NCBI RefSeq assembly: GCF_016097555.1
Contig: NC_054702.1
Span: 107,848,628 to 107,912,627 of the forward strand
Reading direction: 5' to 3'
Source of the DNA: Gigantopelta aegis
Taxonomy: Eukaryota; Mollusca; Gastropoda; Neomphalida; Peltospiridae
Length of the DNA stretch: 64,000 nt
Shown: in pieces, positions 14,205 to 41,848 of the stretch
Numbering within the stretch: the stretch's first letter is position 1
How the letters are laid out: each line of letters starts with the position of its first letter
Program-made: the position numbers and the translations under genes
The notes under the pieces: model-generated
What the model saw: only the letters and a program-made list of their open reading frames with translations
What the model was told of the DNA's origin: nothing
The model's database searches: none

Positions 14205-17200
14205 GTACGAGCTTTTATTATTTGGGTTGTAATTATTTAATTATTGAGTAAATTAAACATTTGATGTTGTTTCATAATATATCGCCAAAACTAATTGATA
14301 TTAATATTACAATGAGTTGTATATTGTTTCATTGTACAAGTACAGCAAAACAAAAATCGTAATACTCATTATACTGGAATATCAAAAGTGAAACTTTCAC
14401 TGAAAGTTCGAAGCGCTTCGTCGCCTTCGAAGTCATGACTCCAGTCGTGGTTAACTTCAGTGTCCTCTTTCATTCATTTATACTTATTTTCGTGCTTATA
14501 TCCAATTAAGATTCAAGCACGCTGTCCTGGGCACACACACCTCATCAATCTGGGTTGTCTGTCCAGTACAGTGGTTATTGAGAGAGTAGTGTAGTGGTCT
14601 TTACTCAAAGACTTGAAAGAGTCATTAAAAGTCGCTCTGGCCTGATGCTTATAAAACTTAAAGTCTAGACTTTAATAAAGTCCACACTTTAACGTAATGC
14701 TATTTCAATGGCGTTGCCATGACATTAAAGTCTGAACTTTATTAAAGTCTAGACTTTAAGGTTTATAAGCACGGGGCCAGGTACATACCAGCCTTATGTC
14801 TGATGGCTTAACCACGACACCAGTGAGGCCAGTTATGTCTTCAAACAATATTCTGTTGATATGTGTCATATGTTAATGTTACCAGGGTGCTCTTATGCAG
14901 GGTTGAAAATTAGCAGTCGTCCGGTCACCACAGGCGACCTTTATTGGCTAATGGGGACCATTGATTTTACGGTTTGTCGAGTATAGTACCAGTTAAAAAA
15001 GAAAAGCACTGAAACTAAATCAAATGTGACAAAAGATGCCGCATCTATTTTGACAGTGCCAGACTCAGTTTCTGTGGTTTAGGGTCTGTCGAGTATAGTA
15101 CCAGTTAAAAGTTAAAAAAGAAACGCACTATTAAGTATCTGAATCTCAGCACCATCAGGCATGATTGAAAATGCAAGTATATTACCAGCAATAAGTGTGT
15201 TCCAACTAGGTCATTGAACTCTGTTGATTCATTGCAGGGACCACTGGATTGCATGGGGGTGACAGCTTATACATTGTTGAACCATTGCTAATGCCGCTAT
15301 TGTGTAGTATGAATGTCTTATTTTTGTAAAATGTTCAACATACATTCCTACTAGTCACGTGAAGTGTTATGGTTGGCCTGATGATGAGATATTTGTAGAT
15401 ATACATATATGTAGAGAGAGATTGTTCCAATAGTTTAATCAAATTTCCTCTTTAATTTATATTGATAAAATATACTACCCTTTTCTTGTGCCGAGTGGCC
15501 TAATCAAAAAGAAAATAACTATACTGATTTACTTGGGTTTGAAAGGAAGGCATTCGGTCTTGGTAACAGATTTCCAAATACAAATGATGCCATTATTAAA
15601 AAAAATATTTTTAATTGTATATTGCATTAAATATATTCTGACACTTTGATGTAATATAATTAAAAGATAAAGATTGAACTGGCAGGTCACAGCGGATTGA
15701 CTATGCTGTATAATATATAAATTGTCATCCTCTTACAACCCCATTGTCCTTAATCGTGAACATGTTATTCACATGTTAACTGTTGCATCACTCACTTTCA
15801 GTCAATGAATACCGCCATTGGTATAAATGAATCTTACAGAATATTGGCAAATGAAACAAATAACCAATGCATCATTCAGATTTAATTACAATCCAGAGTT
15901 GCAAACATGTTATGGAAAATGTTGTGGACATTATTTTTCCACAGCATGTTTTGTGCTGTGGTAATTTTCTTAATTGAATGGGTTGGAATTTGTCCAGCAT
16001 TCTTAAAACGGAAACATCATATATCTAGTTTACGTTATGTTAAGCATATGCAAGGTGAAGTCATTGGAATACTGATGGCATTCAAATTTGAAATTAACTG
16101 CCACCAAATTAAATCACACATTTTTGGAGGGGGTGGGGGATGATGCCCCAAAAAATATACTGTACAGTATTATAAAATAAATTGACTTGAACAGGACAGC
16201 AGCTATGGAAACAACACCACCGTATATTTTTTCGGGCAATATTTAAAACCTTTTTTGTATTTGTGTGTAAAAAGTGTATTTGCCTAATGTATGTTTTTAT
16301 TGTATCTCTAAGCAGATCTCATTCGTGATGATGGCACTAGAATTGGAATAAACGACAGAATTAAAAGTAACAATTATTTTGGAACGGTCAAATTTATCGG
16401 AGAAGTTGAATCCACAGAAGGTTTGACATTTGATATTCTCTTTCTTTTTAAAATATTTACATGGGTTGAAATTATTTATTTTTCATGTTATGTTTTGGTT
16501 GTAAATTTATACACGGACAGATGCTTGATTTTGTTAACAGGTGAGTGCTATTTAGAAAGAGGACACTTATAGTTATAATAGTATTTTAAAGTCTACTGCC
16601 TAATATTATATTTAACAATCTTTGCCAGAAATACCATGCTAGCCAGGATATTGCATCCTACCTACTAAACAAATAAATTGGTTACAAACATTTGTTAAAT
16701 ATTGGATTTTAGAGCATTTCTACATTTGGAGATCTATGTATGCACACACACACACACACACACACACACCCCTTAAATGATGACGACGGCAATATACATG
16801 TTAATATTCCAGAATGGGTTTCACCTGTTGGGATGTTTTCCATCAATCCAATGAACCAAGGCCTCATTCCATAAAATGATCTTAGCCCTACTGTTATAAA
16901 TACCTACTATCATCATACATACCTACTATCGTCACAATTTCCTGCGATTGCCAGCTACTTCCACGATGCAGGGTAGTATACTATCATCATAAATACCTAC
17001 TATCGTCGTCATTTTCTGCGATTGCCAGCTTCTTCCACGATGCAGGGTAGTTTACTATCATCATAAATACCTACTATCATCACAATTTCCTGTGATTGCC
17101 AGCTTCTTCCACGATGCAGGGTAGTTTACTATCATCATAAATACCTACTATCGTCACCATTTCCTTTGATTGCCAGCCTTTTCCACAATGCAGAGAAGTT

Positions 17201-20200
17201 TACTATCATCATAAATACCTACCATTGTCACCATTTCCTTCGATTGCCAGCCTCTTCCATGATGCAGAGTAGTTTACTATCATCATAAATACCTACTATC
17301 GTCACAATTTCCTGCGATTGCCAGCCTCTTCCATGATGCAGAGTAGTTTACTATTGTCATAAATACCTACTATCGTCATCATTTACTGCGATTGTCAGCC
17401 TCTTTCACGATGCAGGGTAGTTTACTATCATCATAACTACTATCGTCACAATTTCCTGCGATTGCCAGCCTCTTCCACGATGCAGGGTAGTTTACTATTG
17501 TCATAAATACCTACTATCGTCATCATTTACTGCGATCGTCAGCCTCTTCCACAATGCAGAGTAGGTTACTGTCATCACAAGTACCTACTATCGTCACAAT
17601 TTCCTGTGATTGCCAGTCTCTTCCACATTGCAGAGTAGTTTACTACTGTGAAACTTGTCTAAACCGGATACCCTTGGGATCAAGTAAAAAGTCCAGTTTT
17701 AAGAGGTATCCGGTTTAGAGAGGTTCTCTTATGTACAGATACAGTAGAATCTCGTTGGCTCAACATTGGAAGGTTCGATCAAACAGCAATGCTCAAACCA
17801 AAAACGAAGTCCCGAGTTTTTTGTTCAGTAAACCCATATATTAACTGATGATAGGTCGAACACGTCCAGGGTTGACTATAAGCCTTCACTCGAACTAAAT
17901 TATTGGTCCCGTCTGTGTCATTAGCTATATTTCCCTTGAACTGGTGATACATCAAATATCAAATGGAAAACCACTGAAAAGGACCAACAATTGCCGCGCT
18001 TGCGCAGTTGGTTATTACAACCTGTGGATTATAATTATTTAGGTGGAACGAGCTACAGATGAATCAGAGAATCGCAACAATAGGCATGCAATCCTTTCGT
18101 TGCCATACCTGTCATGTTGTGTGTTAAGCGGCTCTCGGTAATAATCTTTCAAGTGCTGCTAGTGTTACGGTACCTGTTTGATGAACCATGATACCAATCA
18201 AACAATTAGTGCACAAAATGGCCTTGGCGTGAAGCCTTATTCTGAACACGTCTACAAGACCAGTTTTAAATAAAACGATGGGCGAGTTACACAGCTGTCA
18301 TTACTTCAGCAACCACACATTTAATTGAATCCCACAATCGGTGTAATTTGTAATAAATCCTTTCACTCTGATATTTTGCTATATAACACATTGATGAAAT
18401 TTTTAAGTTTGCAGTTATCCAAATAATATTTATCTAATTCAACTTTCTAACTGATGTTACGGAAATATCCAATGTTGTCCGAATGGCTCTGTTGAACTAC
18501 CTGATGGGTCGAACACTTTCTCGAGCACAAACGGGGTTCGAGCCAACGGGATTCAACTGTATTTAAAAAGGGGCCGCAAAACATGTCCGCTTTTGAGGGA
18601 ATTCCGGTTTACAGAGGGTCCAGTTTTGAGAGGTTTCACTGTATCATCATAAATTACAGTGAAAATTTACAGATAATATCAGGCAGTTGTATGCCACTAA
18701 TGTAGTTATATGATCTTCTTTTTTTTAAGAAGGTTATGAACTCGTTTATGTTAAAATGAATGTAATATACGCAAAATACCGTTTATGAAACTCGGCGTTT
18801 CTTATTAAATCTTAAAAATGTGTTGAACACTGGGAGATAACTCTTGTGACTTATGTATTTTGGCAGTTAATGTGAATTATCACCTTGTAAATAAACTGGC
18901 AAAGTTACTTTGCGGATGTCTGCTACCATTGAATACATGCAAGATGTTCCAGATAGTCTGTAACTAATGTAATATTTAAATTATTCACATTGAAGATTTT
19001 AATTGTAAGAGAAGCACTTGCGACTACCATAATGTTGCTTTGTAGAACGGTTGTAAAGTTTACCTCTGCCAGCTGTAAAATTCACCTTTTAGTGACTATA
19101 AATAACCTTCCTGTCTTTGATCTTCGGTGACAGGTTTACCTACGTTTTGAAACCCTACAAACTTTAAAAAAAAAACATTTGTTAAGTATTGTTTTTATCT
19201 CCGCTTCTGAGAAGTAATCATCATATCCATTATAAATGGTTACTCTAGTATTCCTTACTACATTATTCCACACCTGTTCAACCAAAATCAGTCATTAAAT
19301 GTAGTAGCATCAAATGTAACATTTTGTCAAATTTTCAACTACACACAGCAGTCAAGGTTATATTTATCAGCTGCATGATATAAAGTGGACATGGACATAG
19401 TACTGAGTAAATATAACTTCCAATGTTTACTATGTTGGCAATTGCATATTAAATATTTGATTCTCAAATGTTTTAGGACTTTGGTTGGGTGTTGAATGGG
19501 ATGATCCACAACGGGGAAGACATAATGGCATTCATAATGGAAAGCAGTACTTCACAACAAAGTAAGTACTTACGGTAATGATCTAAAATATTTAATGTCA
19601 GTATGTACAAATGTAGGCATAGTGCAGTAGAAGATTCAGACCTGTTCTAGCAGCCACCTGTATTAAGTAGCAGTTCTACCTGTGTTATTAAGCAACATTT
19701 GTATTCTCCAAAATCATCTATGATCTAATATAGTATTAATTAAACAACTACCTGTCTTAAAAGGCTATTTTTTGTTTACTCTCATTGGTTGCAAGTGTCT
19801 AAAATACCATATCAGACTTTCTGCCAGAAAATAATTTGAGGATACACAGTAAATGCAAAACAGATCATAAGTGCCCCATCCAAATGATTATGGGTTTGAG
19901 ATATTTTGAAATTGGACGTCACAGTTCATGTACATAGACAAATTTTAAACAGCAGTTCTCTTAAAGGGACAGACTGTAGTTTTTAAACACTAAGGCTTAT
20001 TTTTCACCTAAACCCTAGTTTCAACCCGTAACAATGGACACTAAGTTTGGTTAATTTACAAACCTGTAACAAATTTGGATACAATAGTCTGTGACGTTGA
20101 AATACACTTAAAAATAGACAATAATCATTACTTCTCAGACGTACATGCGTTTTTATAAAATGAATAATGCATTATTTGGTATTAAAAACACCAGGATGAC

Positions 20201-23200
20201 CAGAAACACTTCGGTTGTATGGAAATGGATAATGTAAATAAAATAAAAGTAATGTTTCATTTCAGTGATCATAAATGGCTCTAATAGTGATAAATATGCC
20301 TTAATGTTTAAACACTAGGGTATGTCTTTCTAAAAATTGTGAAAATGCATCCATTAATTTCCAACATTTTAGGGTATGTAATTTTACTCTTCATACCCAC
20401 TGGCAAAATTCCTATATATGTATGATAATGGGTATGTAATGAAAGTATTGGATACTAATGGGTATAAAGTGAAAGTATTGTGATAATTAATTTTGTAAAT
20501 TTCACGCAGACATGCTACATCCGGATCCTTTGTTCGTCCAAAGAAGGTTGAGCTTGGTGTGACATGCTTTGCGGCACTGAAGGACAAATACGGACGGATA
20601 AATGAAAAGAATGCTGGAGTTGATGTTGAGGAACTCTATGTCACAGGTTCTAACAACCAAATCACTGTTGTTGAAATGGTTGGGGCAGAAAAAATCAACA
20701 TCAAACAAAGGTAGTGACATTATTTCATAGTATCGCAGTTAGGTAACAACATTTGAAAAGTTAGTAAAAACCACATTTACTACAAAGACACCAAACATAT
20801 CTAAACTGCTGTGCTTCTTTATACTGAATGTTCTTCAAATGTAATCTGTCACTATTGTTAGTACTAAAGTCAGTCATTTGTTTTTCAATAAATTATGGTA
20901 CATGTTTAAAAAAACACATTAAAAAAAAATTGCTTTGTTTTGATGAATAGTGGACAAAATGTAGGTTTGCATTTTTATTTTCCTAGCAGGACTTATTAAT
21001 TAAAAGACTGGTATATCTAAGGTCTATGGGAAAGTCAGTATAAAAGATCTCTTGCTACTTTATGGAAGGAGTAGCCTTTGTAGGAGTAGTATTTGTGGCA
21101 GGTGCGGGTTTCCTCTCTTTGCCAAATGTTAGAATAACCATGACATTGCTTGATCTGGGGATAATAAATATTAAAAAAAAAAAAAGTAATGAAAAAAAAT
21201 AAAATAATAATAACCATGTTAGTAGAGGTGCTCAGTATAAATACCGCAGTATAAATATTGAACGATACGTATCATGATATTTTAATAGCGTACTGGTATA
21301 TTGTGCTTATAGTCACACAAAAACTACCACTTTAAGAAAAGAAACAATAGCATCACTTGTTCCAAACAAATCTTGAATGACTGGATTATAATTTTATTAA
21401 GATATACAAAATGTAAAATTAGAGCACTTTATACATTTTACTAATTGACAATTGGTCTTCGCAATATTGTCGTGGTATTGCAATATATTACAATAGGAAC
21501 ATTTTAGCATTATCCATCACTATACGTTAGTTGTAGTTTAAAATGTGCTGAGGTGTTAACAAATATATTTCTTTCCTTTTTGTAAATCTAATTGACTGAC
21601 TAACCTAAGTGGATTTTTAGATCTATTTTTTATCAGATTGCTTGTGTGTATTTTTGATTTGTTGATCTCTGCTTACAGTAAACTAGAAAATCTGACCGAT
21701 GTGATGTTAACAGATACAGGTGTATATGGTGCTGGACCACAGAATGACCTGGAGAAATTCACACCAAATATACGAGAACTGGATATCTCGAAAAATCTAA
21801 TATCCTCATGGATCGAAATAGTAGAGATTTGCAAACAGCTTGAGTATTTAAAACTTCTTGATTTAAGGTATGGCTTGTACTCTGTTAGTTTAACACATCC
21901 AGATCAAAGTAAATTTTAGGTTAATGTTAATTTTTACAACATACAAAATAAATAATATATTACTACCATATTTTTATATACACAAAGAATTATATAAATA
22001 TTAGACATTTAATGTTGGTATGGATAACAAAATGTATGTGGATGAGTGATATTGGAAGAAGTGGAAAGTTGTTTTTATTTTATAAGCAATTAATTATTAT
22101 TAATATTTTTTTATAAATAATGTCTTTGTGTAACTATAGTAACCCATATAAAGTAGACATTCACAACTAATAGTGTGTAATTTTATTGTGGGGTGATGAG
22201 GTTTATTTGTATGTTGGTTAAAATCTCACAGTTTGTGGATGATTGTTTTCGTTCATATCCCGATGAATGTAAAAGAAATATCAAACAATCCTTAAATAAG
22301 TGTTAGTAGGATATAGACTGGTATATCAAAGGTTGTGGTTTGTGCTGACCTGTCAGTGGGAAAGCGCATACAAGAGATCCCTTGCTACTAATGGAAAAGT
22401 GTAGCAGGTTTCTACTCTAAGACTATATATCAGAATTACCAAATGTATGACATCCAATAGCTGGTGGGTGATTGATAAATCAATGTGCTCTAGTCGTGTC
22501 ATTAAAAAAAAAAAACCTAACTTTTTTGGTATAGACAGATGATTGTTATATTACAGAGTGGTCTGTATATGACAGGTTCTTCTGTACGTGGTATACTATT
22601 GTTTTTAAATTAGCATTACTGTTTAGTAATTATATTGAAATTGCTATATTAGTATTGCCTAGTTTCACAGTAGTTATGTCAGTAGTCAGTTATTACAAAC
22701 CTGTGCTGGTATATTGTTCTGTTTCTTATTTCAGTGAAAATTATCTACAGATCCCAGAAAATCCTCATACTCTTCAGAATTCATTCTTAAAAATTAAAGT
22801 TTTGTGTCTAAACAAAATGAACTACACGTGGCAGCAGGTAAGTTCTTTTGTTTCAAAAAGACTTTTGACTTTAACACTTCTCGTTCTAGCCAGTGCACTG
22901 CACCTTGACGGGTATATCAAAGGATTTGGTATGTGCTATCCCATCTACGGGACGGTGCATGGAAAAGATCACTTGCCACTAATGGAAAATGTAGCGGATT
23001 TCCTCTGTGTCAGAATTTATTTGACACCCAATAGCCAATAAAGAGAAAACTTATGTTTTTTTACTATTAAACAGATGCTTTATATAAATTTTATTGAGTC
23101 CCAAACATTATAAATAGGTAATTTGTTAGTGCTAACTAAAGACGGGCTTTAGCATATAAATAATAAAGAACACTCACTCTTGATTTGTATGAAATGGGAT

Positions 23201-26200
23201 AGGAAGTGAAAAATAAGATGCCTGTTCACATAGCTGATCTTGGTGATATTTCTTAAATACACAATAATACCCACATTTACAGGGTGTTTACTATGTCTGA
23301 AATAAAGTTGAATTTAATTAATTGTTTATTCAAGAATATGATTAGTTATGGAGCCATTTTATTGCTGCATTTTTAGGCCTAATCTAGACTTGAAAAAGAC
23401 TTCTCCCTTTCTGGGAAAAAATGAAGATATTTCATTAAAAAAAATATGCTAAGTGGACATTTACTTTTCAGTTCGAATCATATTTACTTCCAGTAACAAA
23501 AGTTAAGTGAAACAATTGAATATTTTCATTAACACATGACAGTATTATGTAATTCATAATTAATGTGTTGTTGTGTTAAAGTGAAAGTAATAATGAGTAT
23601 TTTCTGGCATTACCGAAATGAATCTGGTCGCTGCAAATGTGGCACGGCATGCATTAATGTACAGTATCATGCCAAAGTTAAACAATAGACCAACATGGTG
23701 TTTAGTAAGGTATGACATCTGTCTTGACATCTCTTGTTTTTGAAATCAGATTAGGACCAACATATTTTAGTGTCTTCGACTTCTCAGTAATAATTCTATT
23801 GCTTGAGCCATCTTTTGGTGGAAAAAAAAGACCATTTTGACAGCTAGATTAAGGCCTATTAAGCTAGATTATCTGGCTAATACAAAATGTAATTTAGCTT
23901 CGCATTCACCAAAATCCATTGAATTCCTGTTAAACTCTCTATTTATTTGAACTTATATTCATATTATTGATATTTATAATATTGATAATTAAATTATAAT
24001 TGTTTTCTGTAATTTCTTGCAGATTCTGCAATGTAGTTCTATGTTCCCGTCACTAAAGCAGCTACACATGCATTCCAACTGTCTGTGTCGCCTCTCAGCT
24101 CCAAGCACTGAGCTGCAGAAAGTTGTTTTGTTGAACCTCGAGTGTAACGACATCTCACAGTGGGATGAGATTCTCAAACTGGCTGATTTACCCAAGTCAG
24201 TTCATTATTTAAAAATCATTACATACATTTATTAATACCCAAGTCAACTCATTATTTAAAAATCATTACATACATTTATTAATACCCAAGTCAGTTCATT
24301 ATTTAAAAATCATTACATACATTTATTAATACCCAAGTCAGTTCATTATTTAAAAATCATTACATTTATTAATACCCAAGTCAGTACATTATTTAAAAAT
24401 CATTACATACATTTATTAATACCCAAGTCAGTTCATTATTTAAAAATCATTACATACATTTATTAATACCCAAGTCAGTTCATTATTTAAAAATCATTAC
24501 ATACATTTATTAATACCCAAGTCAGTACATTATTTAAAAATCATTACATTTATTAATACCCAAGTCAGTTCATTATTTAAAAATCATTACATTTATTAAT
24601 ACCCAAGTCAGTTCATTATTTAAAAATCATTACATACATTTATTAATACCCAAGTCAGTTCATTATTTAAAAATCATTACATACATTTATTAATACCCAA
24701 GTCAGTTCATTATTTAAAAATCATTACATACATTTATTAATACCCAAGTCAATTCATTATTTAAAAATCATTACATACATTTATTAATACCCAAGTCAAC
24801 TCATTATTTAAAAATCATTACATACATTTATTAATACCCAAGTCAGTTCATTATTTAAAAATCATTACATACATTTATTAATACCCAAGTCAGTTCATTA
24901 TTTAAAAATCATTACATACATTTATTAATACCCTAGTCACTACATTATTTAAAAAAAGCCATTACATACATTTATTAATACCCAAGTCAGTTCATTATTT
25001 AAAAAATCATTACATACATTTATTAATACCCAAGTCAGTTCATTATTTAAAAAAAGCCATTACATACATTTATTAATACCCAAGTCAGTTCATTATTTTA
25101 AAAAAAAATATATTTCACGAGGGACATAAATTTGATAATAACTGGTACCGAGTTTGTTATTCTATTTATTACCCCAACTATAGGGTGGAGTTTTTTTAAG
25201 CCTTTTTTTTTTTTCAATATAGTCTATATCAGCTACACTTCCATGTATATAGAAACAACGTAAACTATTTTACTGTTATGGGTATTGCTTTAACATTGTA
25301 TTTTATTCACGGTTCACAGATAATTTTCAAAACCAAAGTTCTATATATTCTGTAAAAAAAATCTATAATGAGTTGCATAAAACTACCATTTTATTACAAG
25401 TTTAACACTGAAACCAGAAAGACGTAAACGCAAACGCTTTAAACTATGTGACGTCATTGTGTATGCTTTGCCAAATCGTGATGACGTCATATTTAGTATC
25501 CGACACGGTGATTGGTTTGTTGGTGTCAAATCTTCCAATAGTAGTGTACGTTAAACCAATGCATGATATGATTTTGATTTTCCCCGTTATGAGTGCTTGT
25601 TGGGGTAATTAATTCATTTATACCCACTTCATTTCATTATTTAACCTTCTGACTACTAGATTAATTTTTGACAAAATCCTTGTTGTGTGTGTACAAGTTT
25701 ATAACTTTTTTGTTTGTTAAGTATGCTTAATATTTGTTACGAAAGTTCATCTTTTTATCACTGACATGTGCAATATTTTATTTTTCAGTCTTAAGACACT
25801 TATTATCAGTGATAATAATATAGAAAAGATTTATTTTCCAAATGTCGCTAAGAACGGGAAGACGACTATGTTTAGGAGTTTGGAGCTCCTCCTGGTGAAC
25901 AACAACAGAATCAGCGAGGTGAGACCTGCCGAAATTACTGTATGATACACTTCCTTCTGTTTGATACCCATTGTTTTAGTTACTCGTTACAAAAACCCAT
26001 TTATAACATTACGGCTGTTCCAGGAATTATGACATAGGAAGCGTAGGAGACAGCTGAATTTTATGAGTTATGGGTATGTAGCTTGTTTGTTTAATGCAGT
26101 AATACCAGAGTTGTTTTATTTTATGTGTCAGTGGTGTAAATATCAGTATAATTTCAGTCTGACTAAATATACTTCATTTCATTTTCTTAGAAAAAGATTT

Positions 26201-29200
26201 AATTTTAATTATCTGTGTATTTTTACTTACGTATATTGACGTTTAAAATAAAATAAACTATACAGGGCTTGAAATTGTATTATAGAAAACCAACAACTGG
26301 TACCATGAAATATCATGAAGTTCAGCATCAAAACATCACAATATACTTCGCAATACATGCAAAGTGTTTGTACGGTGATTTCTAAATTGGTTCTTTTTTA
26401 TTAGCCACAATATTTATCAAATTATTCAAATTTTATGTATGTAAAGTTTCTTTTGGACAGTATAGAATAGTTTAGTTCATTTAAGGATTGAAGCATTTTG
26501 GCATTGTATTTCTGAGCTCCATCCCATGTCTTAATGTGTTACGGCTATTTCCAGTGGTCAAGCATTAATGAGCTGAACAAGTTGTACAGCCTGACTGAAG
26601 TCCAGCTAAGAGGCAATCCACTTATGAGCACGAACAGTGATGAGACCGTTCGCCAGCTCTTAATTGCCAAGATCGGTGGGCTGCAAACTTGCCAAAAGAC
26701 ACAGGTACAGTATATCTTATAATAAATGCTGCTTCATAAAATACTATTGCATCCAGACAGATACACACTAAATGCATCATTTTATAGTGGCATTTTGTTG
26801 TGTGTTTATTCTTGATGGTGTTAAGAGTTTTTTTAAATATGTGTTAATACAGTGATTGCTTTTTTTCTGCTTAGGTACTTTTTGGCATTAATTTTATTCA
26901 CATTTACAATATGTAAATCCACTAAAAACTTATATAACCATCAATTCAGTTTTCACATATGGATGTTATTTTGTTAGTTTAGTTTACGTCACTTTGTTAG
27001 ATGATTCCTACTAAGTGTTTGCATATTTAGCCTTATTTGATTTTTGATATTAAATTTGTCTAAATAAACTACAACTATTATATAAATCTAATTTGAAATC
27101 TGGAATTTGATGTGGTCTTTCAAGACAAATTGACCTACCGTATATCTTCGCCTGTAAGTCGATCTCGGCTATAAGTCGAGTCCCTAATTTCAAGCCCTGA
27201 AAACGTATTTTTTTATTGACCCGTTTATAAGTCGACCCATGAAAAACTAATTATAAATATTGAAATATTTCTTATTTTCAGCACATGAGAACAATAATAT
27301 TTGAACAAAAGAAAATTATTTTACAAACTTCGGTTTTCACGCTTTGTACATCGCAATATAATCAGACTATTCCAATCAACCTATCATTATTACATAGCAT
27401 CAAAACGAAATATTCCCTTAGTAGAGAGTTAAAGCTGTTTGACTGTTACTGTATAGTACTGTACAGATGGTTTTGTGCACAGACAACAACTTTATTTATA
27501 AACACTGACAACAGATCACTACGATAAAACTGAAAGTATCACGTTTTGCCGCCATATTAATACATGTAAGGAGGATAACTCTGGAAAGTACACTGGTTTT
27601 TGTACCAAATGATGTGTGTCCCTATTGCTCTAGATAGTGAACTGCAGAGATCAGTCTATTTTAAGGGAAAGCTCAGTAATATTCATGAAGTTAATCACCG
27701 CCAAAACATTGTTTGAACAACCATTAATGCCAGTGACCAGATTTCAAAATAAACTCAGGCAACAGGTAGTTAGTATTGTTTACATTTTTACTATTAGTGA
27801 TGACTGTTAATTTAACTAAGTGGACTGTTGGCTTGGCATGTGAGTGAGATCGTACGCCTTTTCGCATAACTAAAACCGTTCTAATGCCAAAAAAAAAAAG
27901 GTTATAAAAAATAAATGTGTCAAATTAACATATTTGAGTATAAATACATGGCATACTTCAACAATAAAACATGTATAATAATCCCCAAAACTAATATTTT
28001 TTGGTAAAATTTTTTTACCCTCTTATAAGTCGACCCCCCAAGTTATAAAATAATTTTTGGGTGAAAAAAATTTGACTTATAGGCGAAGATATACGGTATA
28101 TTTTTAGCCATATTTGATGAATCAGAAATATGTTTTAGTAAATTGTACCTGTTAAACAAATCCAATTTGAAATCTGCAACTTAATACTATTTCCAAATAC
28201 AGAATAACCAACCCTTTAACTTGATGCAATATCTACTTTCTCCATTTATTATCGGTTCATATTGTTGTAGGTGTTGGCAAAAGAAAGACGTGGTGCTGAG
28301 ATTGACTACCTGAAACGTTTCGGTCCTGACTGGGTGAAGGCTGGTGGGAATGAAGACTCAGCGAAAAACAATGTTAGTCCAGAGTTTCTGCAGCAACATC
28401 CTAGATACATGGAACTCATACAGAGTAAGTTCAGTTTTATAACTTGACAAATGAACAACATCCTAGATAAATGGAACTCATACAGAGTAAGTTCAGCTTT
28501 ATAACTTGACAACTGAACAACATCCTAGATACATGGAACTAGTCCAGAGTAAGTTAAGCTTTAAAACGTGACAACTGAACAACATCCTAGATACATGGAA
28601 CTCGTACAGAGTAAGTTCAGCTTTATAACTTGACAACTGAACAACATCCTTGATACATGGAACTCGTACAGAGTAAGTTCAGCTTTATAACTTGACAACT
28701 GAACAACATCCTTGATACATGGAACTCATACAGAGTAAGTTCAGCTTTATAACGTGACAACTGAACAACATCCTTGATACATGGAACTCATACAGAGTAA
28801 GTTCAGCTTTATAACTTGACAACTGAACAACATCCTTGATACATGGAACTAGTACAGAGTAAGTTCAGCTTTATAACGTGACAACTGAACAACATCCTAA
28901 ATACATGGAACTCGTACAGAGTAAATTCAGCTTTATAACTTGACAACTGAACAACATCCTAAATACATGGAACAATTGCACATCTTTAGTGTTAGTTTTT
29001 TTGACTGGTGTTCATATTTAGTTTGTTATCGCAATATTGAAAAGAAAACGAAAAAAAAAAAAGTCTAAATTTGTGGAAACATTATTGATGATATAATTTG
29101 CACATGGGTTCAATGTTGGACTACCGGCCTCGGTGGCGTAGTGGTTAAGCCATCGGACTACAGGCTGGTAGGTACAGGTTCGCTGCCCGGTACCGGCTCC

Positions 29201-32200
29201 AACCCAGAGCGAGTTCTTAAGGGCTCAATGGGTAGGTGTAAGGCCACTACACCCTCTTCTCTCTCACTAACTACTAACCAACTAACAATTAACCTACTGT
29301 CCTGGACAGACAGCCCAGATAGCTGAGGTGTGTGCCCAGGACAGCGTGCTTGAACCTTAATTGGATATAAGCACGAAAATAAGTTGAAATGAAATGAAAT
29401 GTTGGACTTTATTGTTTAATGAATTATGAAGATTTTTAAAGGATACATTTGCCGAAAATAACTGTCAGTTAAAAATCAGTGATGATGTTTTCTGATTGTA
29501 AAGCTGGATGGATAACAGTTAATGGTACATTTGGGATTGATCAAAAGGCAATGTCTGTAAGATCTATCTTGTATTTTCATACACTTTAGAACCAGTCATT
29601 AAATAATATCTGCTCTAATGGGCACAGTGTTTTTCATAATCGGTGAAAGTTATTACTGTAAACTGGATTAATATGTTTGTTTTTTTCTGCAATGAAAATA
29701 ATGCATACATATAAAGTTTATGACTTGAATGTGGGTGGGGACGATGTAAAATATATACACACACATCTCCCTCCCCCTCCCCACCCCATTTACAGTATTC
29801 AATTACAAATTGTTTTATAAAATTTAAGAACATTTCTAAAACTTGATAATTTTAAAACTGTGCAATGTGCTCATGTTATAATTTCTATATATTAATTCCA
29901 GAACTGGGTGCTCCAGAAGAATCTGAAATGAAACCAGAATCAACCAAACTGAAGGATCATCTTGTACGTTTCCTTTTCTAATCTCATTCACAAAGGATTT
30001 CTACTCCGTAAAGCTTTGAATACACTCAGTGGTTTTGTTTATTCATTTCTATGTTTGTAACAATGGTTACTGGTGATTTAATACAGGAGCTTATTGTGTA
30101 GGTTTGTTCAAATTAACATACTACTTAGGATAACTAATTTAAGGAATTTATTATTTGTTACCAATTTGTTTGGTATTGTGGTTTCAAGTTGTTATGTTCA
30201 ACAATTTATTGCATTAAATGTATGAGCAGTAACATTTCATTTTCATGACAAGTTTGTACCTGATTTTTATTTTTTAAATTCTTTAATCATGATTACTGTA
30301 TTTTCTAAATAGGTTGGTTTACATTTACCTTATATATACATCAATGTGGTCAGTTTTTTAATTGAGAAATATTTTGTTTGTAATAAATCCTTAACAAGAA
30401 ACAGATATAAAAATCACCTGTCCTGATCATCCCGACAAAGGGACTGTTCAGAAGAAATTACCACGTGAGTATCACATTGTGCAGTCATGTTAGTTCATAG
30501 TGTCTGGCTTTTCTTAGCTTTTGTAAACTTTCACACCAGTGAAATATCACCTATAGTCCTTCCCACAGGAAACACCTTTTTGTCATACTTTGGAATTTAC
30601 TACAAGTTATTTATTTTTGAAACGAATGTTTTTTAAATTGTACACAAATATAGTAATTTTTATTTTTTATTTCCAAAACACTTAATTTCAGTTTGGCATA
30701 AGAAGAAAAGTATTTACTTAAAACATTTTTGTAGGATGGGACGGATTATAACTGTAGATTTAGTTATTCACAAAGTGTGTATCATTAAAGCTAAAATTCC
30801 ACATGCAATTCCCACCTGGTATTCATTAACAGTGTGCCAAACCAGGATTGCAATTCACAGACTTCATAAGTGTCTGTTGCAATATGTAGTCAATGTTTTT
30901 CTAGTAAAAGAAGGAAAAAGTAGAGAAATATTTGTTTAATGACACATCAGCCAATTTTTAACTATCATAATGATAACTCTACCAAAAATGAGCAAAAATG
31001 ATGAGTTAGCACATACCATGTAATTTGGCACACGGGAATAACCATGAGTCCACCAAGGATAATCAATCCTACAATCTATTGCATCTCAGGCTTTCTACAG
31101 GGTGTGACGTAGCCCACCTGATGCACAGTCTGTAATCAATCCACACTGGTAGCCCATTGGGCTATTTTTCGTTCCAGCCAGTGTACAAGGTTCGCACATG
31201 CTTAAAAAGGCCCTAAATTTAAAGGGTTGCCCTAAAAAGTCCCTATTTTGATGATCTAGCTCTAAAAAGCCCTATATTTGACGGGCAAGTTCACTAAAGA
31301 CCCTAAATTGGGCCATATAAGCCCTGAAATTGATAGACATTTTTCTTCTTCCGGAAACATTAAATAAATTGCCAAAAATACATCGATATCTACATTCATT
31401 TGTTGATCTCAATGCTCGCTCGGACATTGGTGTGTGAATAATGCCAAAATGATAACAACGATTCATTCTTAAAACATGTTCGGTCAATGTTCGGTATTGT
31501 TCGTAGAAGGATTCATTCGTAACTTTCGGGGAGCACATGATTGGTCATTCTAAAACGAAACACGTTTCATTGGTCATTGCAAATGGTGGACAGCATAGTT
31601 TTAGTCCCTAAATTTTACTTATATTGACCCTAAAAGTCCCTAAAAAGCCCTTAAATTTAGGTTTGAAATTTCTGTATGAACCATGGTGTACCATGACTGA
31701 TATATTAAAGGTTGTGGTATGTGCTATCCTGTCTGACAGATGATGCATATAAAAGATCCCTTGCAACTAATGGAAAAATATACCAGGTATCCTCTCTAAG
31801 ACTATGTCAAAATTACCAAATGTTTGACATCCAGTAACCAATGATTAATAAATTAATGTGCTCTAGTGGTGTTGTTAAACAAAACAAACTCTTTAACAAT
31901 CCTAGAATCTATTGCATCTCAGGCTTTTTACGATCAAGTAAATCCCACCCACCCTTCAATAATATAAAATATAGTTGATTTAAAGATGTGATAATATTTA
32001 CCATAGCTAATATGCTATGGTGCTCAAATTAAAAAACCACAAGTACAATTTAAACCATTGTTTTATCATTAAATTAAGTGCATATGTAATAAGTGTAAGT
32101 TTGAATATGTCATTTTACCTAAAGTTTAGTTTAAGTCTGCTGTATGGTACAAAGTTAGTGTTATTAGATTCCCCTGTAATTCCAACATAAACTATTTTCT

Positions 32201-35200
32201 AGCAGATCTCTGAGAATCGAAAACCCATTTATGGGTTACACAAAACAAATTCAGGTAACCTCATTTCTGTGTCACTCACTATGACCATGTAACTGATATC
32301 ACTCCCTATGACCATGTAAACGATATCACTCACTATGACCATGTAACTGATATCACAAATATAATGGGTTATACAAAACAAGACTTGTGCAAGTGTTGTG
32401 CGATAAAATCAGCATTCTCGCAATTTTCAAATCTCTGTCTAGTGTGGAATTTTATTTCTAATATATTTTTGATATTTTTGGCAAATAGAATATTTTACAT
32501 TTCAGCATTGACTTTTGTTTCAGAGACAATGACAGTTCAAAAAGTGAAGGCTCTAGCTAAAAGATTATTCAAAATCCATGCAGCAGATGTCACTGTGTCG
32601 TATGTTAGTCACAGGGTGAGTTTTTATGTAGTTCTTTGAGAATGTGCAAGACGAAAAATACTGATTCTTAGTGTTTCTTCTTCTTTTTTCTTCTTTTTAG
32701 TCTATCCATTTACTATTGGGGTTTTGTTTGTTGCACGATAATGTGAGTTATTATTTGAACAATGTGAAAAATTAAGAGTTAATATGACTTTTGCTTTTGA
32801 ATTTAAGTCTCCTAGATATATCATTTCTGTTAGGTTAATATTTATTTCCAATCAGTATTGTATCGGTGAAGACCTTTTTAAACAGTATTAACTGAAATAC
32901 ATATGCAGCTGTGTCATAATATAGGCTTTATAAGTTAACAAGATGGTCATTCAAATAATATTTCTTTTCACATTACCTGTCCTCAAACAAGGGCACCTCT
33001 CTCCTCCTTGCTTGTCTCCCTCCCCCCCCCCCCCCCCCCCCCCCCACGCAAGTGGTCTGGTCCGAACATCCCAACAGCCAATGGGATGGCCTAAATTCTT
33101 CTACTGCATACTGCTCTCTAGTTCCGGTCACATGACTGTAACTTCCTTCTTTTTCTCTTCGCTAAAGGGTCTGGACGTCCTTTTGCTTGCTCTGTTTTGG
33201 AGTCAAATTTTTTTTTTTTATAAGACCTTTCGTTTTGTATTCGTGTTTGGGTGAAATGTTTTTCACCTTCATTTTCGTTAGCTTTCGTTAGCTTTCGTAT
33301 TTCGCTTGACTTTCCAAGCGTTTAATTACATGAAATGTTTATATCGTCGTGTCTTTATTTACCAGCTTTGTGTTTGTGTTATGATTGGTTTTTCTTTCTT
33401 TTCACAAATTGAAAAATTATTATTATCATGTCTGATAATGTTCAGCGACTAGTTCGAGCGTGTTTACGCTGCAAGAAGTTTACTGCCGGCGGCGACCCTC
33501 ACGACTTATGTCCGGGTTGTCGTGTTCCGTGTGGCCTCACTTTAAGATGCGACCTTTGTTCGGGGTTGTCTGATGTCGAGTTCGCGGCTTACCTGAAGGT
33601 GGTGTCAGCGAGGACCAAGAAGGTGGAATCATCGCCTTCGACTGCTGACTCTGTGGCGGAAGTGTTACATTCAATTCTACCAACCATGCTGAAAGAAACA
33701 ATGGCATCAATGGCGATCTTACCCAAACCGGCGGGTTCGGGGTCAGGTCCAGTTCCAGTCCCCTCTTAGGGGGTGCGGCTTCTTCAGCTCCACCGATACC
33801 TAAGACTTCAGATGACAGGCCTGCGGTCTCGACGCAGCCCTCTAAGAAGCCGGCTCATGCAGATAGACGTTCTACGGACTCCAAGGCGGGGAAGTCATCT
33901 TCGGCGCATCGGAGCCGGGACCGTAGCCGTTCCCCATGACCTGCACGGCTCCCTACGGGTTCCATGGATCGTCAGCGCCGACCTTTGATTGATGTGACTT
34001 CCAGGGCCTCCGAGGGTTCTCGACGGGACCGTGGACGGTCCGGTTCACCGGTGGCTTCCATTTCAGCAGATCGATTGGCCTGTGCTCGAGTGCTCCGAGA
34101 CTTTGGGGATGCAGCGCCTACAGCAGTTTCTATCATTGATGAACCTGACTCTACTGACCATATGACTATGAGGGATTGCTTGGCGGCCGTCTATGACATG
34201 TTGCCGTCCTTGCCACATCCACCAACGCCGTCCAAGAAGGGACCAACACCGATGATAGTGACTGATGTCCCTCCGGAAGATGTGGTTATTCGTTCCTTGG
34301 CAGCCGGTACACTCATATCCGACGTGGCGACAAATTTAGACCGCACCTTTAAAGAGACAGCGTCCTTTGTCGCCTTCCCGTCTTGGAATCACCGTATGTA
34401 TCCGGTGTTTGACATGCTGTTTAAATATGGGGCTCCGTCTTTGGATGAAGATGTTCACCGTCTTGGGAAGTCTTGACGGACAAACAGGTCCAAGCCATGG
34501 ATACTGCCCAGAGACGTTGCTTGTTTGTGTTGTCTTACTTGAACGTTTTTCTTGCTGCGATGGCCACCCAGGCAAAAGATGCACAGTGCTACGCGCTGTT
34601 TTAACAATCGGCGCAGATGCTGGCTTTCCTGACGTCTTCGGTTACCTCTATGTCATCAATGTTGATGCAGTACCGTCGCCAGGCTTATCTGAAAAAGTCA
34701 ACCTTGGATTTCCAGCATAAGAAGGAGCTGTTAGCTCAACCGTGGTCCGCAACAAAGCTGTTTGCAGGCAAGGTTTCTGACGTGGTTACGGCCAGTGATA
34801 AAGACCAACAGTCGACAGCAACTGTCAAAGTTTTACAACTTATTTCGATGTTGGAATCCACGAAGCGAAAGTCTACGTTCACTGCACAACCACCATCTAA
34901 GCACTGGAGAGGTTCCTTTCGAGGTCAACCTTTCTGGACAAACAACCATCCGGTCCTCCCGCTCGGACCCAGGGGAAGCCTGGCCGACGTTGACGCCAGC
35001 CAACCAATCTTCAGATTGTCTCAACCTACGCCCGCCCCTGATTTTGAACCAGAACAACGACTCGGTTTTGACGCTTCTGGTGTGCAACACACCGGTCGAA
35101 ATATCCATGGTCAGAAGTCGACTTCGCCATTATTGGCGAAACTGGAAGACACTTTGCCAAGATCCGTCCATTGACCACTTCACCTCGAGAACCGCGGCAT

Positions 35201-38200
35201 TCTGTATGACAAGTCAAGGTCCTACAGGAGTCCGTCAACAAACTGGTGGAGAAGGGAGCCGTTCGCAGCATTTCGGAAGCAAGCCTAACACCCGGCTTTT
35301 ATTCGGACATCTTCCTCGTGCCGAAGAAAGAGTCACCGGAGCTGCGAATGATCCACAACTTGGCGTTTTTCAACGACCACTACCTGCTTCCTCCTCCGTC
35401 CTTCAAGATGTTAACGTGGCGAGATGTCTTTGCCGTGATCAAACCGGGGGATTGGCTTGCCTCGCTAGATCTCAAGGATGCCTACCTTCACGTTCCGATG
35501 CATGCCGATTGTCATCGCTACCTCCGGTTCGTACTACAGGGTCGGCATTACGAATGGACAGTCCTGCCCTTTGGGATATCCATAGCGCCATGGCTGTTCA
35601 CCAGAATCACGACTCCGATGTCCCGCTTCCTGCATCGCAGAGGTATATCGTTTTACCCGTACCTCGATGATTGCCTGATGAAGTGCCAGAGCAAGACAGG
35701 GCTTACTGCACATGTTGCCTTCATCATGGATTTTCTCAAGCATCTGGGTCGGATTATCAACATCGGCAAATCTCGACTGGCTCCCACGCAGTCTCTACAG
35801 TTCATAGGCGCTTGGCTTCGACCCGACCTGGTCTTCGTTCAAGTCCCTCTAGACCATTGGGAGAAGATCCAGACTATGATTGCCTTAGCCCTCACCGCTC
35901 CAATGACCTTCCACGGTTGGCAGAGTCTCCTGGGTCTCCTCACTTCCGCCCAGATTTGACACTCAGAGGTCGTCTCCAGTTGCGGCGCTTGCAGATGTTT
36001 CTCAACCCGTTTGTTTGTTTCAACAATCCGGACTTGATCATCTCGCTCCTGGGCAATCTACGCTCCAGCCTGCGGTGGTGGCAGCTCCGATCGAACGTCT
36101 TAGACGGTGTCTCTATGCGGCCCTTCCTAGCCACTCATCACCTGTTTGTCGATGCGTCACTGGAAGGTTGGGGAGCCCATCTCAGCAACCAGACTACTTC
36201 AGGGCTGTGGTCTCCTGGCGAACTTGGACTCCACATCAAACTGCTAGAGTTGTTGGCAGTCTACTACGCTATTCTTCATTGGCGACAGATGTTGACAGGG
36301 GCCTCTCTCATGGTGGCCACAGACAGTACCACCGCGGCGGCTTATATCAACCGTCAGGGCGGAACCCACTCCAGCAGTCTGCTGCAGTTGACTTATCGTC
36401 TCTACAAGCTGGTCGACGAGATTCCGCTGCAACTTCGGTCTCGCCATATTCCAGGGGTTTCCAATGTACTAGCCGACACGCTGTCACGGCCGTCGTCTCC
36501 ACAGCTGACAGAATGGATGCCAAATCCCGAAGCGTTTAGATGGGTGTGCGACAGACTTTGGACACCAAACATTGATCTCTTCGCCACACGATTCAACCAT
36601 CAGCTGAGGGTTTACGTGTCTCCGGTGCCAGATCCCGAAGCTCTGGATCTCGACGCCTTGGCTATCAGCTGGGAACAGATGGACGCGTACGCTTTTCCTC
36701 CACCAATCCTCCTTCCAAGGGTGCTTCAGAGGTTTCAGCTGTACCATTGTCGCCTGTTGCTCATTGCTCCGATGTGGCCATCCAGCATGTGGTATCCAGA
36801 TCTAATACGTCTTGCCGATCCACATCCTTTACCACTGCCAGACTGGGATCATCTGTTGCTGCATCCCACGTCAAGACTATACCATCCACGTTCGCAGTTG
36901 TTCCAACTGCACGCATGGACTTTATCTCCAAGAGTTTGAGGAAGAAATGTTTTTCTTCGCAGTCCACGGCGGCCATTTTGAAAGCGCACAGATCAACTAC
37001 TACTGCGGCTTACAACGTTAGATGGCTTTGCTTTCACCGATGGTCTACCATCGCTGGGTATGTTTCGGTCATCTCTACTGTTCATGATGTCGCTACTGGA
37101 ACGAAGTTATCGGGTATTCCTGAGATCCATAAGATGATCAAAGGGTTTCGTCTTGAGGATCAAGTACATCGGTTTCGGCCACCAAGATGGGACCTGAATC
37201 TGGTGTTACGAGCATTATCGACCGCACCTTATGAGCCGATCGAATCCTCTTCCCTGCAAGACTTGATGTGGAAGACGGTGTTTTTACTCAGTTTTGCCAC
37301 GGCTGCCCGTGTCCCAGAACTCCATGCTCTCGATGTGGACTTGGTATGTTTTCACCGAGATCGTCGTGCGGTCAACTTGGGGTTACTCATGAACTTTGTT
37401 GCAAAGAATCAGTTACCAGACCAAGCACCTCGTTCGTATGTTGTGCAGGCCCTCTCCTCTATTGTTGGTCCAGCGGACGTTGAGGACTTGGCGTTGTGCC
37501 CTGTCAGAGCCCTGCACCAGTACATCGAGAGGGCCAGATCTTTTCGACAACATCGCAAGAGACTTTTCCTCTCCTGTAACCAGAGTCGGTTGAGGGATAT
37601 TATCAAGAACACGGTGGCCACCTGGATCCGGTCTTCTATCCTGACTGCCTATCAGAAGGAGGGTTTACCTGCTCCATCTGCTACTAATCCGCATGAACTC
37701 TGTGCCTTGGCTGCCACGATGTCCCTGCACTGCAACACACCCATTCAGCACATTATCACTGGTTGTTTCTGGGCTACGGACTCCATCTTCGCCAACTATT
37801 ATCTGAGGGATATCTCCACAGAAGACGCTGAAGGGTTCCATCATCTGGGTCCGGTTGTTGCTGCACAGACTCTGTTGAATACAAGCCGTCCTCATCGCCG
37901 TTGATGTCTGTCTGATTCTGGGCTGCATACCGAGATGTCCATCGAATCGACAGGTGAGGATTGCTTAGACTTTTGTTCTTTTGCACAGTTCACGCACTGG
38001 TGCCGGAACTTTTGTCTCGATAACCTTTACCCTGCACTGCATGTGATTATTTTTGTCGTTATTGAACTAACAGTTCTTTGGTGTACTAGACAGAAAACAC
38101 TCGGGGGTCTTGTTCTGTTCAATGTTCTGACGGATGCACCTCATTAGGTTGTCGCTTGTTATTACTAACACTTCAATACGTGAGGGTTACCTAACACCTG

Positions 38201-40010: not shown

Positions 40011-40900
40011 TGTTACAGTTAATCTGTATAATCAGGTAATACGTATATTACCTGATTTTTTCAGCTAATATGTATATTACCTGTTTCACTCAGGTAATAT
40101 GTATATTAGCTGAAAAAATCAGGTAATATACATATTACCTGAAATATACTTCACTAATTTATACAGATAACCTGAAACATGCAGAATGGTATTGACAAGT
40201 CTTTAGATCAATGTAGACCCAAGGTCTCAGTTCAAAACAAGTCTTTTGATCAATGTAGTCCACGTTCTCAGTTCAAAACAAGTCTTTTGATCAATGTAGT
40301 CCAAGTTCTCCTTGATTGGTCACAATACCTTTGATGTACCTGTTCATTGTTAAATCATTTCATAGACAATGTTACAGTTAATCTGTATAATCCACCACTG
40401 CTGTTTTAACTAATCCTATCTGTAGAGCACAATAAAGCCACCCAGGCACCCAAGAAATCACCGCGTCAGTTTTACTTGCTTAAGAAATATGAACTACTGC
40501 AGTGTGGGGACGTTCAGAAAGAAGCCAAACCAGGAACATCCACTGTACTTCGCTACTATCGAGGAGACCTTTGACATCATCAAGCACGCCCACATCGCTT
40601 CTGGTCATGGAGGACAAAACAAGATGATCAAGGAGATCAACAAGAAGTACGCCAACATCACCCAGGATGCTATTACCTTGTTCAAGTCCATGTGCATCGA
40701 GTGCCAGAGAAAACGTTTGGCACCGATGTGAAGGTACGATTGATATCATCCAGCCTCCCCCAAGATGTCATTGCAAGGTTGCAAACTGAAGACAACCTCC
40801 TGTCTGCAGTATCCCATCCAAAACCCAGTCGAGCAATCCAGCGAGGAAGCAGAACCTGTACCAGTCTCACCCATCTCTGTACGTCAGGAGGAAATTAGGC

Positions 40901-40931
<31 letters not shown>

Positions 40932-41848
40932 TGCCAGAGATGCCCAGTTCCAGCAGGCAGAGAGAATGGTCAAACGAAGTCGCATTTTGTTTTCTAGTGT
41001 GCAGATCGGAAGCAATGTGACAGTGCCCATTCCTTCAGAGGACGTGCAGATCCTAGGAACATCATCGGAGTTGTGACAGAGTACAGTGACAACGAGTTGT
41101 ACACAATTGCTGTAAAAGGAGGAATATTGGATCGAAAGTACTCTAGAAACCAATTCGATGTGTGCTACGACCTTGTATTCACCCGATGATGTCTGTACAG
41201 ATAAGGATATTTCCCTGCGTCAAGCTGTGCAACTGAGTCGAGATGCGGTGGACAAGGTTTCACAAGATGTAACTGTGTTGGAAGTAAGAGGTGTCGGACA
41301 AATCGATGTAAATGCTTCAAAGCCAGATTAGTGTGCAATTCCCGCTGCCATTCCAGCCTGCCATGCATAAACAAGAACTGTTGTTGCTGAGAACTTTGAC
41401 TACATTGATCAATAGACTTGTTTTGAACTGAGAACTTTGACTACATTGATCAATAGACTTGTTTTGAACTGAGAACTTTGACTACATTGATCAATAGAAT
41501 TGTTTTGAACTGAGAACTTTGACTACATTGATCAATAGACTTGTTTTTAACTGAAAACTTGGATTACATTGATCAAAATATCTTGTTGTTTGTTCTGCAG
41601 TAGTGTGTGTGTTGTGTGTTGCAAATGGTATGTGTTTTGAGCCAATAAAGATTGCCAGCATATTATTGTTTATTCATTCAGTCAAATAACAACCTTGTCA
41701 ATACCATTCTGCACATTTCAGGTAATCTGTATAAATTAGTGAAGTATATTTCATATACATATTACCTGAGTGAAACGGGTAATATACATATTAGCTGAAC
41801 AAATCAGGTAATATACATATTACCTGATTATACAGATTAACTGTAACA
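40011..41848 (+). mobile_element. Ginger/KRBA2-like DNA transposon, internally deleted
   Basis: 1.84 kb with long inverted ends: TGTTACAGTTAATCTGTATA at the left and its reverse complement at the right, then matching blocks of AGGTAATAT-type palindromic motifs. Inside each end are tandem copies of a roughly 44-60 bp unit (40197-40315, three; 41385-41575, five). Left flank CATA and right flank TATA may be a 4-bp target duplication. A second copy of the terminal motif occurs at 40370. The coding remnant resembles integrase-like transposases of the Ginger2/KRBA2 group. Confidence 0.75.
40455..41392 (+). pseudogene. Ginger/KRBA2-like transposase remnant
   Basis: Starts PRQFYLLKKYELLQCGDV, shifts frame near 40515, then reads YFATIEETFDIIKHAHIASG, HGGQNKMIKEINKKYANIT and CIECQRKR, an H2C2 integrase zinc-binding domain. 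The next codons, in another frame, are FGTDVKVRLISSSLPQDVIA, which in relatives lies after the catalytic DDE core. The core (about 150 residues) is therefore deleted. Downstream are AERMVKRSRI after a GA microsatellite, NIIGVVTEYSDNELYTIAVK, and a Cys-rich tail (RCNCVGSKRCRTNRCKCF, NSRCHSSLPC) up to TGA. Not able to transpose itself. Confidence 0.75.

Follow-up and report, generated by a model that had tools for sequence, protein, structure and literature searches.

The Gigantopelta aegis window considered here, meaning the whole 64,000-nucleotide stretch that was analysed (contig C4:107848628-107912627, from a 1.149-Gb assembly of 5216 contigs), contains a TBCE gene in which two introns each begin with a tandem array that copies the 5′ splice junction. 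This raises the question of how such arrays come to lie at exon ends, and which of the many near-identical donors is used. Array 1, with 47-bp units, starts at the exon 7 junction and repeats its donor 20 times; array 2, with 62-bp units, starts at the exon 10 junction and repeats its donor nine times. The arrays are probably minisatellites, tolerated in a genome rich in tandem arrays, with a unit that by chance covers a 5′ splice site. Recurrence of the same arrangement at other genes supports tolerated repeat growth as the most likely explanation.

The array-bearing gene was named TBCE in the first-pass annotation, and this identification is borne out. The model protein displays CAP-Gly and LRR domains (Pfam) and aligns with human TBCE (9m1k) at E = 7.5e-119, over residues 10–500 of a partial model 502 residues long. 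The gene model has 12 exons across positions 16316–32615, plus a last exon at about 39015–39107, whose ends were counted by hand. A start exon was not found in the gene model, and the exon numbers 7 and 10 presuppose one further exon upstream. The features at the two junctions are as follows.

24023..24195, + strand: TBCE exon 7 (LRR region), an open frame with acceptor TTGCAG, ending in ...GATTTACCCAA, with a gap-free human TBCE alignment at the junction.
24189..25104, + strand: array 1, a 47-bp minisatellite starting 7 bp inside exon 7 (19.6 copies, 94% matches by Tandem Repeats Finder, TRF).
24196..24201, + strand: first donor GTCAGT, the presumed authentic donor of exon 7, a choice that matches human TBCE (score 4.5).
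24233..24235, + strand: in-frame TAA, reached on splicing from any later donor of array 1 (examined for donor 2, which lies beyond the stop).
24243..25089, + strand: the 19 downstream donor copies of array 1, 15 of them with intact CAAGTCAGT.
25789..25918, + strand: TBCE exon 8, from the gene model and the human TBCE alignment.
28271..28424, + strand: TBCE exon 10, ending in ...CATACAGA, from the gene model and the human TBCE alignment.
28394..28973, + strand: array 2, a 62-bp minisatellite starting 31 bp inside exon 10 (TRF: 9.4 copies, 94% matches).
28425..28430, + strand: first donor GTAAGT, the presumed authentic donor of exon 10, a choice that matches human TBCE (score 4.6).
28445..28447, + strand: in-frame TGA, reached on splicing from a later donor of array 2 (position determined by counting along the sequence).
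29902..29967, + strand: TBCE exon 11, with TAC before and GTTTCC after its donor junction, placed by frame and human alignment only.

The exon 11 donor (29967) fits the human alignment, but its score of -3.3 is the lowest among 69 donors; it may be mis-assigned or unusual.

The array 1 unit consists of 7 bp of exon (TACCCAA) and 40 bp of intron. CCC(A/T)A followed by GTCA across the junction is present 20 times; CAAGTCAGT is retained in 16 units and has decayed in four (units 2, 13, 14 and 17). The earlier description of about twenty 47-bp units is correct in outline, but six units deviate, three being 43 bp long and three, near the right end, 48–50 bp. Divergence is concentrated at the right end (units 17–20). 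Substitutions within the donor fall at positions +5 to +7, plus position -2 in one unit. Selection against the decoys was considered as their cause and the pattern was left as chance; array 2 has no such pattern (one of 12 variable columns lies in the donor 9-mer).

The array 2 unit has equal parts of exon and intron, 31 bp each; the 62-bp unit and the nine donors had been described correctly, but the exonic part had been given as about 27 bp. CAGA followed by GTAA across the junction occurs nine times, with AGAGTAAGT kept in eight units and GTAAAT in unit 9. The array closes with a tenth exon tail, incomplete and lacking a donor. Judged from the sequence, exon 10 is the source of the copies, because the exonic half of the unit codes for residues conserved in TBCE. 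At two intron positions unit 1 departs from units 2–9, which share bases there that unit 1 lacks. Units 2–9 therefore have a later common ancestor, which fits growth of the array behind an untouched authentic junction.

Both arrays have the properties of minisatellites: head-to-tail units of about 10–100 bp, many copies, and point differences between the copies. They also start at an exon-intron junction, as the first-pass annotation had stated, and carry its donor in register in 20 and nine copies (16 and eight intact). Genome matches, whose counts are lower bounds for both units, give no indication that either unit belongs to a mobile-element-borne array or a dispersed satellite. The double unit of array 1 has at least 13 matches, 10 of them in array 1 and three (77%–79%) at C4:16044325-16044496, and the array 2 unit has at least nine, all in array 2. 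Both units are thus private to the TBCE locus, save for one weak partial match of array 1.

Which donor is used can be approached through the protein. Junctions 7/8 (LADLPN-LKTLI) and 10/11 show zero residues gained or lost relative to human TBCE, and in both arrays the conserved protein requires the first donor. The acceptors used in the model (before 25789 and 29902) lie outside both arrays. In each array the first donor is probably the one that cells use. If array 1 is spliced from donor 2, the partial model runs into a stop after 297 residues, and it does so after 436 residues if array 2 is spliced from donor 2, 3 or 9. The in-frame TGA read on use of a downstream donor of array 2 had been predicted and is confirmed for these three donors; that a stop follows downstream donor use in array 1 as well is an addition to the first-pass annotation. 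Both stops precede the second donor, therefore they apply to later donors too. A stop this early is expected to trigger nonsense-mediated decay and not to yield a stable truncated protein.

Other genes of the same genome were scanned for comparable junctions. The sample comprised 73 donors not picked for arrays, from 53 myosin-head exons (of 80 hits) and 20 lectin-like exons (of 47 non-seed hits), with chromosome contigs and better hits taken first. For each hit, the best-scoring site close to its end served as the donor, and some of these assignments are uncertain (e.g. L055, L070, L096 and L106). At 13 of the 53 myosin loci only about 100 bases downstream were available, so that long units could escape. 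With a uniform gapped test, donor-spanning tandem duplications were found at 6/73 donors, identical at three thresholds (95% interval 3%–17%). The same test finds 2/12 TBCE donors spanned. The six are:

L054: lectin-like donor, 36 bp × 6.2 copies.
L057: lectin-like donor, 93 bp × 2 copies.
L076: myosin donor, irregular, with exon-tail copies carrying GTAAAT.
L078: myosin donor, 80 bp, 3.3 copies up to the end of the fetched sequence, about 23 bp exonic.
L095: myosin donor, 98 bp × 2 copies.
L137: myosin donor, 85 bp × 2 copies, with the second GT lost.

Acceptors are affected as well. Two of 40 myosin acceptors (L123 and L128) are spanned, only L123 at the strictest threshold; among the TBCE acceptors the gapped test finds 0/13. 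The duplications at L123 (86 bp) and L128 (divergent, about 72 bp) put a decoy acceptor upstream of the exon. Arrays that adjoin a myosin donor without copying it (L091, which is CT-rich, L098 and L101) and arrays that end just before an acceptor AG (L083 and L092) were excluded from the counts.

Two further lectin-like loci, L041 and L042, were found by a triple-donor pattern. Their arrays start at the exon end and have 47-bp units, each with 40 bp of exon and 7 bp of intron, in 5.0 and 27.1 copies respectively. The two are paralogues 37 kb apart with the same array (L042:4839-6113 and L041:3982-4218, coordinates referring to the reverse strand of each fetched locus) and form a pair suited to the study of array growth. 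The label “lectin-like” is based on sub-threshold Pfam Lectin_C matches (E = 0.0057 and 0.099) together with the reading of the exon; 49 similar exons are present in the genome, counting L041 and L042.

In all, 14 regions were fetched from the pattern matches listed, and 12 of these were inspected as donor arrays. L043 and L050 were rejected, as these arrays look instead to have grown from what we take to be tails of short interspersed elements (SINEs), and L051 was rejected since no array is present. For seven arrays (L040 and L044–L049) no upstream exon was confirmed, Pfam having been run on the upstream frames of L040, L047 and L049 among these, and otherwise on those of L041 and L042. The low-complexity arrays L052 and L053 served as background only.

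The main alternative to tolerated repeat growth is a mutational process that targets 5′ splice junctions (for example breaks linked to R-loops or pausing, or end-joining at donors) and so seeds arrays at donors. Two arrays within one gene speak for such a process, and for stwintrons break repair has been put forward as a source of small donor duplications, in the portions of that report consulted (PMC7138796). Its weight depends on how often positions other than donors are spanned. With the gapped test at its lowest threshold the rate is 73/2500 (2.9%) for window positions outside both arrays, 49/1500 (3.3%) for TBCE intron positions, and 19/180 (10.6%) for myosin intron positions, the last derived from only 20 loci and not independent. 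Relative to the myosin intron positions, which are duplicated equally often, the 6/73 donors show no excess (P = 0.80). Myosin donors (4/53) and acceptors (2/40) do not differ either (P = 0.70).

Ungapped testing finds fewer spanned donors. At its loosest setting 5/73 donors are spanned, compared with 131/5000 window positions (P = 0.04) and with 304/2100 positions in 14 other loci (P = 0.99), which are array-rich and bias the rate upward. At stricter settings 4/73 donors are spanned, with P 0.10–0.12 against the window. The strictest setting leaves 2/73 donors, 71/3886 window positions, 103/3677 TBCE intron positions, 616/6886 positions in the other loci and 13/180 myosin intron positions. 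Coverage by arrays (period ≥15) is 2849/62504 bases (4.6%) in the window minus both arrays, 892/8600 (10.4%) in the myosin intron flanks, 744/8670 (8.6%) in the lectin fetches and 21411/112489 (19%) in the array-rich loci.

Triplets of AGGTRAGT at 24–54 bp spacing are no commoner genome-wide than in a reversed control (4231 vs 4500). Triple-donor patterns were tried as a genome-wide detector and failed to separate exon-linked arrays; the reversed-control counts are dominated by large arrays and were not relied on.

Several observations weigh against tolerated repeat growth and should be set beside these results. The 6/73 rate at donors mildly exceeds that of the window (P = 0.02) and that of the TBCE introns (P = 0.03), which also favors a junction-targeting process. 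If the four arrays within the TBCE span are placed at random, with up to 31 exonic bases, two fall at donors with a probability of 0.003. Triplets of CAGGTAAGT at 55–85 bp spacing number 484, compared with 205 in the reversed control; one array supplies 69 of the 100 such matches listed. The use of the first donor is read from protein homology. Finally, in the part of a mammalian account that was consulted, splicing favors the intron-proximal donor when two are comparable, for a reason described as unknown (PMC6002489), and TBCE needs the opposite.

The verdict on donor preference depends on the control chosen, because P is 0.02, 0.03 or 0.80 according to the positions used. A preference of the duplications for donors is thus neither shown nor excluded. 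The probability of two or more arrays among the 12 TBCE donors is 0.05 at the window rate and 0.26 at the 6/73 rate; given the rate at other genes' donors, the two TBCE arrays are therefore far less remarkable. The first-pass annotation had taken two arrays in one gene to suggest a shared mechanism, for example slippage or repair at junctions. A special mechanism at junctions is not shown: donor-spanning duplications are found at the six other donors, and the P value shifts with the control. A junction-targeting process is considered unlikely.

A second alternative gives the arrays a function: U1 would be recruited jointly by their many weak donors, or a poison choice would lower TBCE expression via decay. 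The first donors of both arrays are indeed weak; with scores of 4.5 and 4.6 and A at position -1, they lie near the 9th percentile among 69 donors in the genome. Later donors yield stops. But weakness is no rule, as array donors elsewhere can be consensus-like (L078 AGGGTGAGT; L041 and L042 AAGGTGAGT); an association of arrays with weak donors was dropped since these donors are stronger. The four decayed donors of array 1 also argue against function, as does the lack of a donor-spanning copy in 18 of the 20 lectin-like paralogues (two of the 18, L055 and L070, being without a clear donor). A functional role is less probable still than a junction-targeting process. That the arrays are an assembly artefact, a short repeat falsely expanded, is highly improbable: assembly errors are frequent in tandem arrays, but the distinct unit variants stand in irregular order, genome searches yield no second copy of the arrays, and comparable arrays are seen at several unrelated genes.

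Tolerated repeat growth would proceed as follows. A local tandem duplication across the exon end would leave both the first donor and the exon before it intact, because of the geometry of a donor-spanning duplication, and the copies would land in the intron. The duplication would be nearly harmless, and slippage or unequal exchange could then expand the array. The spliceosome would take the first, exon-defined donor, and use of a later copy would lead to an in-frame stop and probably to nonsense-mediated decay of the mis-spliced RNA. Such arrays could be common in a genome rich in tandem repeats because the duplication is mild and wrong choices end in stops expected to decay. Tolerance of decoy donors, which had been offered earlier as one possibility, is the best fit; use of the first donor is suggested by protein homology.

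Related arrangements are known. In the human gene IFI6/6-16, the repeat units are reportedly much shorter and are located at the exon end. Its minisatellite provides multiple splice donors, according to a title cited in PMC2572611 and PMC4526556, and the portion of PMC4526556 consulted describes two downstream repeat units used as donors. By analogy IFI6/6-16 is a direct human precedent for the TBCE-type arrays, as minisatellite units carry splice donors in both genes. TBCE differs in having stops after later donors and two arrays per gene, and its donor use is predicted from sequence.

Tandem duplication across intron-exon boundaries is a described route of intron gain (PMC4974935). As far as the sections consulted go, the duplication there crosses the boundary or copies an AGGT-containing exon segment, with multiple 24-bp duplicates in fission yeast genes; a new intron results, whereas in TBCE an existing intron grows and the old acceptor is used in the gene model. 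In the stwintrons of Lipomyces, a donor element is likewise duplicated beside the original donor, but the part of the report consulted describes duplications of 4–7 nt together with a new internal acceptor and two-step excision (PMC7138796). Earthworm metallothionein has minisatellite blocks within the first intron of an invertebrate gene; donor-containing repeats are not described in the sections consulted (PMC12783039). Decay of mis-spliced RNA has been proposed as permissive for new introns, in the portion of PMC2809761 consulted. No genome-wide survey of donor-spanning arrays was found in a literature search that left most subscription journals outside.

The window contains other repeats. 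In the intron after array 2, positions 29120–29400 hold what is presumably a tRNA-derived SINE-like element, and a similar element lies directly behind the L057 donor duplication. The last TBCE intron (between the exon end at 32615 and the last exon at about 39015) has overlapping open reading frames at 33413–37904, with stretches that we take to be reverse-transcriptase-like and recombinase-like. At 40030–41827, 41-bp units at 40195–40310 and 41387–41576 are apparent reverse complements flanked by palindromic AT-rich arrays; this is perhaps a transposon with inverted repeat blocks. A 108-bp unit at 61879–62430 is present in 5.1 copies that are 100% identical and open on both strands (215 and 203 amino acids); it is either an array of very recent origin or a duplication introduced by the assembly.

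A broader statement can be made tentatively, and is itself rather doubtful. A sizeable share of this species' donors (6/73, 3%–17%) may head donor-spanning copies, which would amount to thousands genome-wide if the sample is fair; the spliceosome would reliably take the exon-proximal first copy, against the intron-proximal preference described in mammals, and minisatellites might even start preferentially at donors. At recognisable exon ends, arrays of 9 to 27 near-identical donors form a natural test of the choice among equal 5′ splice sites. In TBCE a stop marks use of the wrong donor, and RNA-seq of one animal would report the choice at many loci simultaneously. The arrays also illustrate the in-place multiple duplication of splice junctions, from which alternative donors and new introns can arise.

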